A stretch of 40,732 nt of DNA from a virus. This document shows positions 32,127-35,008 of this stretch, one piece after another. The DNA lies in the IMG/VR virus record IMGVR_UViG_3300034947_000017, positions 1 to 40,732 of that record; one strand, written 5' to 3'. A program made the position numbers and the translations under genes. Position 1 is the stretch's first letter; every line of letters starts with the position of its first letter. The notes beneath the pieces were generated by a model, which made no database searches, was not told the DNA's origin, and saw only the letters and a list, made by a program, of their open reading frames with translations.

Positions 32127-32507
32127 TCATGTGGTCTGGTACTGGGCCACGCGCTCCTGGACGACCCACGCGGGCAGGCCGAGGCGAGTGGCGATCTCCT
32201 GCACGGACAGGCCACGCCGGTAGAGCCGCTCCAGTGCCTCGACCCGCTCCTGTGCGGTCAGCCCAGCCGCCGGCCACCCGGCGCAGGCGAGATCGACGCG
32301 GGTCTCGTCGAAACGGTGCTCTGGCGCCTCGGCGGCCAGGCGCGCTCGTGCGCGCGCCCTGCGTCGATATTTGCGGTCGGCCTGGCGCACCATGCCCAGC
32401 GCGTCCGCACACCGGCACCCGTGCCGGGCGTAGGCCCATGCCGTCGCGTGGGCGAGCGCGGGACAGCCTGGCCTGACCCCGTAGACGATGCTCGCCGGCC
32501 CGGTCAT
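32127..32507 (-). CDS. HTH protein, paralogue 1 of a pair
   Basis: A 126-aa protein: an N-terminal module IVYGVRPGCPALAHATAWAYAR-like with HGCRC, a basic linker (YRRRARARARLAAEA) and a C-terminal HTH (LSVQEIATRLGLPAWVVQERV). It shares its N-terminal pattern and layout with the protein at 33084-33491. The Cys-rich start (RPGCP, GCRC) may bind metal. It is the last gene of the early block. ATG 32507 overlaps the previous stop as ATGA. Confidence 0.78.
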   Translation of the reverse strand: MTGPASIVYGVRPGCPALAHATAWAYARHGCRCADALGMVRQADRKYRRRARARARLAAEAPEHRFDETRVDLACAGWPAAGLTAQERVEALERLYRRGLSVQEIATRLGLPAWVVQERVAQYQTT

Positions 32508-32638: not shown

Positions 32639-33084
32639 CGGTCCACTCCCGCCGCGTCGCGAATGGCGCTGCCAGCGAGGTCCATCAGTGCGCTCATGTC
32701 GTCGTAGAACCACACCTGTTCGCCCTCGATCGACGCGTCCCACAGCGCCCTGGCTTGCTCGGCATCGCGATTCACGACAGCCGCGATCAGCCGTACGGCC
32801 CACAACTCATGGCGCGCTTCGGGCACCGACTCTGGTACCGCCTGCTTGCCGTTGTAGACGAAGCGCACGGCGATCATGCCGCCCTCGGATGGGCTGCCCA
32901 CACCCTTGGCGCTGGCGGCCGCACTGGCGATGCCGCGGCAGAAGAGCCACAGCCCGTGCCCTCCGTAGCGCAGGCCGACTTCATAGAGGATGCTGGCAGT
33001 GTCGTGGCTGTCCCTGTTGGCCGCTGCCGTCAGCGCCTTCCACACCTTGCCCTCGAGCCACTTCTCGTCGATGTTGCCGAGCAT
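32635..33084 (-). CDS. Unknown early protein
   Basis: A 149-aa protein: MLGNIDEKWLEGKVWKALTA, SILYEVGLRYGGHGLWLFCRG, then MIAVRFVYNGKQAVPESVPE, ELWAVRLIAAVVNRDAEQARALWD. Mixed alpha/beta, no recognised motifs. It lies between the two HTH paralogues, with TGATG and ATGA overlaps. Confidence 0.7.
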   Translation of the reverse strand: MLGNIDEKWLEGKVWKALTAAANRDSHDTASILYEVGLRYGGHGLWLFCRGIASAAASAKGVGSPSEGGMIAVRFVYNGKQAVPESVPEARHELWAVRLIAAVVNRDAEQARALWDASIEGEQVWFYDDMSALMDLAGSAIRDAAGVDR

Positions 33085-33491
33085 CAGTCCTCCTCCGCCT
33101 CGTACCGCCGTGCCCGCGCCCGGTAGCGCTGCACGGTCCGTACGCACAGGCCGAGACGCGCTGCCGTAGCGCGTCCGGACAGTCCGGCGTCCCGTAGTCG
33201 CGCCACTGCCAGCGTGCGTTCCGTCTGCGATAGGGACCGGAGTAGGTCTCGGCTGGCCGGACCAAGACATGCCAGGTCGACGGCGATCTCGTCGACGTCG
33301 ACCCCTCGGCGTGGCGGCACGCCCAGGCCAGTGCGTGGATGACGAGCTCGCCACTGTCGCTGGTGGCGTAGGTACTCCTCGCGCGCTCCTGCGCACCTGC
33401 ACCCGTACCGGTGGTAGGCGCGTTCCGTGCCGTGTGCGGTGCCCGGACAGCCAGGCCGGCGACCGTAGACGATGCGCACCGTGCCGGTCAC
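33084..33491 (-). CDS. HTH protein, paralogue 2 of a pair
   Basis: A 135-aa protein. The N-terminus MTGTVRIVYGRRPGCPGTAH, then YGCRCAGAREEY, matches paralogue 1; the C-terminus holds an HTH (GLSGRATAARLGLCVRTVQRY). Both proteins have an ERxxAxxRLxxxGLS-like stretch before the HTH. GTG 33491 overlaps the previous stop as GTGA. The pair probably arose by duplication around the 149-aa gene. Confidence 0.78.
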   Translation of the reverse strand: MTGTVRIVYGRRPGCPGTAHGTERAYHRYGCRCAGAREEYLRHQRQWRARHPRTGLGVPPRRGVDVDEIAVDLACLGPASRDLLRSLSQTERTLAVARLRDAGLSGRATAARLGLCVRTVQRYRARARRYEAEED

Positions 33492-33697
33492 CCATCCACC
33501 TCCGGGTCGTACCGGGCCCGGGCCGCGTCCTGCGCGGCGGCCATCGCATCAGCGAGAGCGGCCCGGTGCTCCCGGTATGCGGCGATCGCCTCCTCGTCAT
33601 GCGCGCCGTTGCTCTCGATCAGGTGACACCAGGTGCAGGTGCCCAGCGCGTCCGGGTCGTCCAGGTAGACGTGTGGGCTGATCACGCGGCGACTCAC
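33488..33697 (-). CDS. Small CxxCH protein
   Basis: A 69-aa protein: MSRRVISPHVYLDDPDALGT, then C21-T-W-C24-H25 (half a zinc site or a zinc knuckle) and a helical Ala-rich end (EEAIAAYREHRAALADAMAA). GTG 33697 overlaps the methyltransferase stop as GTGA. Similar short proteins with CTWCHL are common in actinophage early regions; role unknown. Confidence 0.68.
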   Translation of the reverse strand: MSRRVISPHVYLDDPDALGTCTWCHLIESNGAHDEEAIAAYREHRAALADAMAAAQDAARARYDPEVDG

Positions 33698-34428
33698 GAC
33701 GCACCGCCCAGCGACATGGCCGACGCCATGATCAGTCGGCCGATGTGCTCGGCGACCTGCGGGACGACGGCGTTGCCTAGGGCCCTCACGCGGTCCACCC
33801 GACCGGGTAGCCCATGAGCCACTCGACCCAGTCGGGGTTCGACGGCCCACCGATCGACTCTGGCAGGCTCAGCCCGCACCCCCGCCGGTCTCGGTACGTC
33901 GCCGAGTGCGGGCTGAGCCCGCCGCGCGTGGCATCCTTGGCCAGCGGCGTGGGCCACACCGAACAATCGGCGTCGTGGGTGTGGGGCACCCACTGCACAA
34001 GCGGAGGCCCACCCCACTCTGTGCCGGTATCCAAGTCGCACAAGGTCGGCGTGGACGACGTCGAGTCCTCGGGCGAGCAGACCGGGCACGTTCTCCCAGA
34101 GCACCCACCCGGGTCGGACCGCGGCGATGACCTGCTCCATAGCTGGCCAGAGCCATCGGTCGTCATCCTGCGCCAGGCGCTTGCCCGCCTGGCTGACCGG
34201 TTGGCAGGGGAAGCCTCCGGCGATGACGTGAACAGCTGGTCTTGGCTCGCCTGCCCACCAGTCGGCGGCTGTACGGACGTCGTCATGGCGGGGTACCTCC
34301 GGCCAGTGTCGGGCGAGTACGGACCGGCAGAACTGATCGATCTCGACCTGGCCGACGACCCGCATTCCGGCGCGCTCCAGGCCGAGGTCGAGGCCGCCGA
34401 TGCCGGCGAACAGCGAGAGGACGTTCAC
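33694..34428 (-). CDS. DNA cytosine-5 methyltransferase
   Basis: A 244-aa protein, short for the family. Motif I is LFAGIGGLDLG (7-17), motif IV GGFPCQP with nucleophile C75, motif VI ENV (112-114), motif VIII RRRLF (152-156) and motif X RVRALGNAVVPQ (213-224). The target-recognition part between VIII and X is only about 50 residues. Over the same DNA a +1-shifted frame (motif part 33786-33956) reads SVWPTPLAKD and NPDWVEWLMGYPVGW, which are also C-terminal motifs of phage methyltransferases. Likely protects phage DNA from host restriction. GTG 34428, coupled by GTGA. Confidence 0.88.
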   Translation of the reverse strand: MNVLSLFAGIGGLDLGLERAGMRVVGQVEIDQFCRSVLARHWPEVPRHDDVRTAADWWAGEPRPAVHVIAGGFPCQPVSQAGKRLAQDDDRWLWPAMEQVIAAVRPGWVLWENVPGLLARGLDVVHADLVRLGYRHRVGWASACAVGAPHPRRRLFGVAHAAGQGCHARRAQPALGDVPRPAGVRAEPARVDRWAVEPRLGRVAHGLPGRVDRVRALGNAVVPQVAEHIGRLIMASAMSLGGAS

Positions 34429-34643
34429 GACGCACCGTCCAGGGCGGCCAGGCCGGCCTCGGTCAGCGAGTACTGGGTGAGCGCCAGCTCCTCCTCGGCG
34501 GTGCCCAGCGCCACCGTGGCCTCCTCCAGTCGCGCGTGCGCCTGGTCCAGCTCGGCCCGCACTGCCACCAACTGGGCGCAGCACTCGCATACTCCGGGGT
34601 GCCCGGGGGCCGGCACGTGGCCAGCCCCCGTCGTCCCGGTCAT
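34425..34643 (-). CDS. Small coiled-coil protein
   Basis: A 72-aa protein: a Gly/Pro N-terminus with VCECC, then a long helix (LVAVRAELDQAHARLEEATV, LGTAEEELALTQYSL). The Cys cluster C19, C21, C22 could bind metal. ATG 34643 and its stop are both coupled to neighbours (ATGA, GTGA). No family is recognised. Confidence 0.65.
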   Translation of the reverse strand: MTGTTGAGHVPAPGHPGVCECCAQLVAVRAELDQAHARLEEATVALGTAEEELALTQYSLTEAGLAALDGAS

Positions 34644-35008
34644 CGCCGACCGCCACTGCGCCTGAGCTCGCGCCGCTCGTCCTCCGTCGTGCCGCCCCAG
34701 ATGCCGTAGTCCGTGGTGACCCCGCCGGCCAGCGCGTACTCCAGGCACTGGCGGCGTAGCGGGCAGCTGGCGCACACCTGCTTGGCCGCGGCCGCCTGGA
34801 GAACGCTGGGGCCCTCGTGCCCGGCGGGGAAGAACAGCTCTGGGTCCTGCTCGCGGCACGCCACGCGCGGGTCGGCGAGCCAGTCGCCGTCACCGGCCTC
34901 GCGGCTCGGCCGCGGTGCGTACGGGTCCCGCAGCAACGGGGCGGTGGTCCCGTATCGTCCCGGGCCGACGGCACCGTGCACGCCGCGGGTAGCGCTAGGC
35001 CGGCTCAT
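34640..35008 (-). CDS. whiB: WhiB-family transcription factor
   Basis: A 122-aa protein with the four iron-sulfur cysteines C51, C79, C82 and C88 (ACREQDPELFFP; QVCASCPLRRQCLEYAL) and the family turn GIWGG (102-106) followed by basic ERRELRRSGGRR. WhiB proteins bind a 4Fe-4S cluster and the main sigma factor. Phage copies such as that of TM4 can repress host whiB2 and affect division or superinfection. ATG 35008 overlaps the helicase stop (ATGA). Confidence 0.95.
   Translation of the reverse strand: MSRPSATRGVHGAVGPGRYGTTAPLLRDPYAPRPSREAGDGDWLADPRVACREQDPELFFPAGHEGPSVLQAAAAKQVCASCPLRRQCLEYALAGGVTTDYGIWGGTTEDERRELRRSGGRR

Follow-up and report, generated by a model that had tools for sequence, protein, structure and literature searches.

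Described two-chain and overlapping methyltransferases

Ordinary C5-methyltransferases of one chain have a small domain for DNA recognition, which is made up of the variable region and motif IX. For M.EcoHK31I, Lee, Kam and Shaw are said to have found in 1995 that an alternative reading frame within the large-subunit gene encodes the small subunit (176 aa), and activity reportedly requires the two together. Motifs I-VIII and X of this enzyme lie on the large chain and only motif IX on the small chain, and its predicted target-recognition domain was placed in the large subunit (PMC3404938). M.AquI (CYCGRG) also consists of two chains forming one C5 enzyme, with motifs IX and X on the small subunit. 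Among phages, the methylase genes of ShiLan-type mycobacteriophages hide an out-of-frame HNH endonuclease ORF (PMC11855218).

The window analysed here is a virus record of 40.7 kb, in which the locus is read on the minus strand (Table 1). By motif layout it can be likened to M.EcoHK31I (YGGCCR), as it has the same motif split with motif IX on a separate, smaller ORF. The nested alternative-frame small gene reported for that enzyme also has its match in the window, in a +1 ORF with an ATG at 34286 and GGAGGT 8 nt upstream. However, the recognition domain of M.EcoHK31I is predicted in the large subunit whereas selection indicates that the variable region here is read in the nested frame, and M.EcoHK31I is part of a restriction-modification system whereas no restriction gene was found among the eight neighbouring ORFs checked in the window. 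The locus differs from M.AquI in that motif X is on the large chain and the small gene is nested inside the large one; the motif split of M.AquI is shared instead by 13 relatives described below. With the ShiLan-type genes it shares a hidden ORF in a phage methylase gene, which there is an inserted mobile endonuclease and here would be a part of the enzyme.

We consider it probable, at roughly 0.85, that the segment codes for a DNA (cytosine-5) methyltransferase of two polypeptides, with the alpha chain as the catalytic large domain and the beta chain as the recognition small domain. Translation of alpha from the GTG at 34428 would supply motifs I-VIII, as the large domain for catalysis and AdoMet binding, and the helix of motif X that closes it. 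Ribosomes would start beta separately at its own Shine-Dalgarno sequence and ATG (34286), inside alpha and shifted by one base from its frame, and stop at 33786, and beta would bring the variable region and motif IX, which together would make up the small DNA-recognising domain. The two chains would assemble to one active enzyme after the manner of M.EcoHK31I. Both proteins would accordingly have to be produced and bind each other, with the target sequence presumably set by beta, and the likely role of the enzyme would be marking phage DNA against host restriction.

Table 1. Features of the candidate two-frame methyltransferase locus (positions in the window).
Feature	Position	Strand	Remarks
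Putative alpha subunit gene (frame A)	33694..34428	-	244 aa, GTG start, C5-methyltransferase large domain
Alpha motif I (FAGIGG)	34393..34410	-	
Shine-Dalgarno GGAGGT	34295..34300	-	8 nt upstream of beta ATG
Putative beta subunit gene (frame B, +1)	33786..34286	-	166 aa, ATG start, wholly within alpha
Alpha motif IV, catalytic Cys (GGFPCQ)	34201..34218	-	PCQ invariant in 42-45 relatives
Alpha motif VI (ENVPG)	34081..34095	-	
Alpha motif VIII (RRRLF)	33961..33975	-	
Beta WPTPLAKD, conserved WPTPxAxD element	33933..33956	-	variable (target-recognition-like) region
Alpha tail RWAVEPRLGRVAHGLPGRVDRV	33787..33852	-	shares its bases with beta motif IX; 4-fold sites almost frozen
Beta motif IX (NPDWVEWLMGYPVGWT)	33792..33839	-	near-invariant in 74-77 relatives
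Alpha motif X (RALGNAVVPQ)	33757..33786	-	helices with pLDDT >90

The large chain

Frame A spans 34428 to 33694 as one open reading frame and carries motifs I-VIII and X without motif IX. Its translation matched PF00145 (9e-35) over residues 1-164 only and phrog_363 in PHROGs (1e-73), and its profile aligned with HhaI residues 12-178 (motifs I-VIII), with no match between there and motif X; RALGNAVVPQ gave a weak alignment with HhaI 297-319, which is motif X. Alpha thus has what defines the C5-cytosine methyltransferases of PF00145, namely motifs I-VIII with the catalytic PCQ, as well as motif X at the C-terminus, and the motif IX and small domain of the one-chain form are absent from its chain. 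The AlphaFold model had high confidence at residues 1-163 and in the helices of motif X, and showed disorder at residues 164-208, where the small domain is expected. When this model was compared by Foldseek with HhaI and HaeIII (327 and 324 aa), 166 columns were aligned at 1.6-1.8 A, covering the large domain only. The original prediction had taken motifs I to X to be complete in this one frame, which does not hold given the missing motif IX and the stretch of predicted disorder in its place.

The nested second frame

In frame B, the peptide SVWPTPLAKD begins near 33962, with its W111 at 33956, and NPDWVEWLMGYPVGW begins at 33839. Its product matched phrog_1008 in PHROGs (2.9e-20), no match was obtained in Pfam or NCBIfam, and its sequence profile found no match among solved structures. 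Both phrog_363 and phrog_1008 are named just 'DNA methyltransferase', and their relation as two frames of one segment is not stated there. The TGA stop of frame B (33788-33786) overlaps a GTG codon that is Val214 of frame A, as had been predicted; the second frame does not 're-enter' the first at this point, since frame A continues uninterrupted through the stop. AlphaFold modelling of beta alone from a 74-row alignment gave a poor fold (pLDDT 62), which was not taken into the fold search and which would be compatible with a chain that has an obligate partner.

The resemblance of frame B to relatives could come from alpha being complete as one chain, with frame B as a passive shadow of its codons or a frozen relic. 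A frame-B profile was built without the nearest relatives of the window, and 500 synonymous shuffles of frame A were scored on it. The shuffles had a mean of 54 bits and a maximum of 82, and the real frame B scored 141 bits, which 0/500 shuffles reached. Part of the resemblance is thus shadow, because shuffled alpha sequences still score about 54 bits, and most of it is not. The N-terminus of beta (TSSPEASPA, over motif IV) had no clear extra constraint and looks like shadow only, as the passive reading would have it. The same reading is opposed by the distance of the real score from all shuffles, by alpha synonymous sites that are frozen over motif IX, and by the disordered gap that alpha has instead of motif IX, and we regard it as extremely improbable. 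The original claim that methyltransferase motifs occur in two frames is therefore upheld, with both translations present where predicted and the 141 bits of frame B well above the shuffle maximum.

We also compared the beta motif with the canonical motif IX (LTPREcarLmGFP-dw). In an unprompted comparison of profiles by HHalign, the C-terminus of the split-form relatives aligned with it at P = 0.018, above 20/20 column shuffles, so that by sequence the WVEWLMG motif has only statistically weak homology to it. Composite alpha+beta+alpha proteins gained only 4-5 bits of Pfam score over shuffled inserts and their Pfam match was not extended through motif IX, and the profile of the split-form C-terminus had no credible match among solved structures. 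The position of the motif can be read from 13 relatives, in which frame A does not go beyond motif VIII and a single frame-B ORF has this motif and then motif X. Because motif X follows in the same ORF in these relatives, the beta motif occupies the place of motif IX. The two frames would be complementary halves of one enzyme rather than two versions of the same C-terminus, which goes beyond the original prediction.

Besides, several WPTPxAxD repeats were present in the beta of L059, L071, L015, L057 and other loci, reminiscent of multiple target-recognition units. In frame B of L083:2418-4071, no stop separates the beta ORF from a different methyltransferase-like sequence downstream (VRHGDALKLLQ...ITSPPYW), which may reflect a fusion or two neighbouring genes in the same frame.

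Selection on the two frames

Codon-level selection on both frames was determined in relatives from the changes at 4-fold sites in 76 disjoint pairs; the loci are partly non-independent, and the disjoint-pair design handles this for the selection result only. Changes at alpha 4-fold sites amounted to 0.47 over motifs I-III, 0.44 over IV and 0.26 over V-VII, fell to 0.09 in the overlap with motif IX and were 0.48 at motif X. Compared with motifs I-III, the rate in the motif IX overlap was lower in 67 pairs and higher in 7. When the same bases were read as frame-B codons, positions 1-2 of motif IX were mostly frozen and 4-fold third positions changed at 0.46. The codon-level comparison proposed for the relatives supports a reading in both frames, with frozen 4-fold sites of alpha over motif IX and free third positions of frame B.

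Over the variable region (VIII to IX), the 4-fold rate was 0.53 in frame B versus 0.31 in frame A, and alignment in frame B gave a third-position excess. On account of this excess and the higher 4-fold rate, the variable, recognition-like region would be mainly a frame-B protein. Stop codons are also depleted in frame B over motifs IV-VIII, with 5 seen versus 273 expected, and 196/201 loci were free of them versus 46 expected, while the controls, the +2 frame and the segment past motif X, were at expectation.

The alpha peptide EPxLGRVAxGVP was considered as a conserved motif of alpha in its own right and this was only partly upheld, as it is mostly frame B that freezes its codons. The T of the codon for alpha Trp194, a 4-fold site in beta, is frozen too, and hence alpha adds some constraint of its own on this peptide.

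Probable translation of the nested gene

Internal frame-B starts were counted in 201 loci against the numbers expected from synonymous shuffles. A start preceded by a Shine-Dalgarno sequence of at least 4 nt was found in 108/201 loci versus 27 expected, and 46 of the 201 loci had one of 6 nt or more, versus 4 expected. This excess of starts with their own ribosome-binding sequence points to initiation of beta that would be independent rather than by frameshifting.

A +1 ribosomal frameshift joining frame B to frame A, with one chain carrying motifs I-VIII, the variable region and motif IX as its product, would agree with the observations that exactly the missing segment comes from frame B and that frame-B constraint is strongest past motif V. 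Yet the Shine-Dalgarno-preceded starts of frame B lie far over expectation, frame B is open upstream through motif IV, which a late shift does not need, and the shifted product would stop short of motif X. The locus also departs from a programmed-frameshift gene, in which the second frame has no start of its own, in the enrichment of such starts and in a frame B that is open upstream of the variable region. We consider frameshifting highly unlikely and separate translation of beta the preferred reading.

Distribution among relatives

Scanning with frame B gave 328 matches in viral contigs and 339 in bacterial and archaeal genomes, the latter from Actinomycetota, Bacillota, Pseudomonadota, Bacteroidota, Nitrospirota, Spirochaetota and others. 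Among 245 loci with the motif IX signature, 212 have motifs I-VIII and X in frame A and motif IX in +1, 13 have the split form (I-VIII in A; IX and X in +1) and 10 are cut by contig ends; motifs I-VIII, IX and X together in one frame were found in 0/245. Since these loci had been obtained through frame B, a blind sample of 80 loci was chosen by motifs I-VIII alone. By a strict motif IX pattern, the motif lay in +1 in 63/80, in +2 in 2/80 and in frame A in 0/80, and a further 13/80 had a degenerate motif IX in +1 when judged by eye, which brings the +1 total to 76/80; 2/80 run up to the edge of their contig. Dcm and two restriction-modification enzymes whose motif IX is in frame were free of any long +1 ORF across the C-terminal half. 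Homologues with only one of the two frames conserved were looked for as well, and the outcome did not refute the double reading.

The distance from motif IX in frame B to motif X in frame A is exactly 65 nt in 173/200 loci, and 159-222 nt separate the two motifs in the split form, where they share one frame. This fixed spacing speaks against a second frame created by sequencing or assembly indels, as does the identical arrangement in finished genomes and hundreds of independent contigs. Local frame changes do occur in a few relatives (L062, L073, L074, L088, L298, L338), as such errors would produce, and we give the indel explanation next to no probability. Of the options that had been raised for the segment, namely a swap of frames, reading in both and indels, reading in both agrees with our results, and indels or sequencing errors are excluded because the same arrangement recurs in hundreds of unrelated loci.

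The possibility that beta is a separate protein with an unrelated function, such as a regulator or a DNA mimic, that overlaps a methyltransferase by chance would fit its want of a Pfam or NCBIfam match and of a solved relative by sequence. However, nearly every beta found overlaps a C5-methyltransferase with this same +1 offset, the beta ORF itself extends into motif X in 13 relatives, and the motif that beta resembles is exactly the one that alpha is without. An unrelated function accordingly has very little probability beside that of a recognition subunit.

As for the wider group, we tentatively suggest, with somewhat less than even confidence, that a very large phage and prophage group of C5-methyltransferases consists of heterodimers with the large domain in frame 0 and the entire recognition domain in +1, in which the WPTPxAxD repeats of beta could be exchangeable recognition units by which specificity is varied or multiplied without any change in alpha. 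A nested two-frame C5-methyltransferase is already known in kind from M.EcoHK31I; the spread of the nested form through phages and the assignment of the variable region to beta look under-recognised. No published description of the phage version was found in the open-licence literature searched. In Paenibacillus larvae phages, pairs such as ARCTICFREEZE_56/_57 have both overlapping frames annotated as DNA cytosine methyltransferase, that is as two methyltransferases, unlike the two-subunit reading proposed here, and in the genome-analysis paper on these phages (PMC6070908) an explanation of the overlap was not found. Most of the records looked at outside P. larvae phages show only one frame, and usually present it as an intact one-chain methyltransferase. 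If the two-subunit reading is true, many of the phage methyltransferases cloned or annotated so far would lack activity unless their hidden partner chain was supplied. Loci of this type would be an old and widespread example, and an unusually clear one, of the same bases serving two functional proteins, and such a locus offers hundreds of natural examples for the study of overlapping-gene maintenance and for split-methyltransferase design.

Variants of the arrangement were also observed. The split form, like M.AquI, was noted in L084, L013, L035, L039, L043, L057, L061 and L063 and further in L064, L065, L067, L076, L115, L152 and L333. An origin of the split relatives by duplication of the overlap was considered and rejected, as no motif IX relic was found under the second tail. 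The frame of alpha shifts part-way in L088 (mycobacteriophage Llama gp74/gp75), L073, L074, L062, L298 and L338, where alpha is divided between two ORFs or continues in frame into beta; these shifts represent either natural breakage or sequencing errors. Very divergent C5-methyltransferase genes on cyanobacterial (L258, L260, L264) and enterobacterial (L265, L266, L267) plasmids also have a long ORF in the +1 frame whose last peptide resembles motif IX (for example LNPDLSRWLMGLPDAW), by which the nested arrangement reaches past the family of the window.

Neighbouring genes

Downstream of alpha, the window encodes two paralogous small helix-turn-helix proteins (MTG..IVYG.RPGCP...) on the minus strand at 32127-32507 and 33084-33491, with matches to HTH_38 and HTH_23. 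Close upstream, also on the minus strand, is a WhiB-family transcription factor (34640-35008; PF02467, 4e-22), a family membership pointing to a probable actinobacterial host. The GTG start of alpha overlaps the stop of an upstream ORF of 144 aa (GTGA, 34425-34428), suggesting that the two may be translationally coupled.
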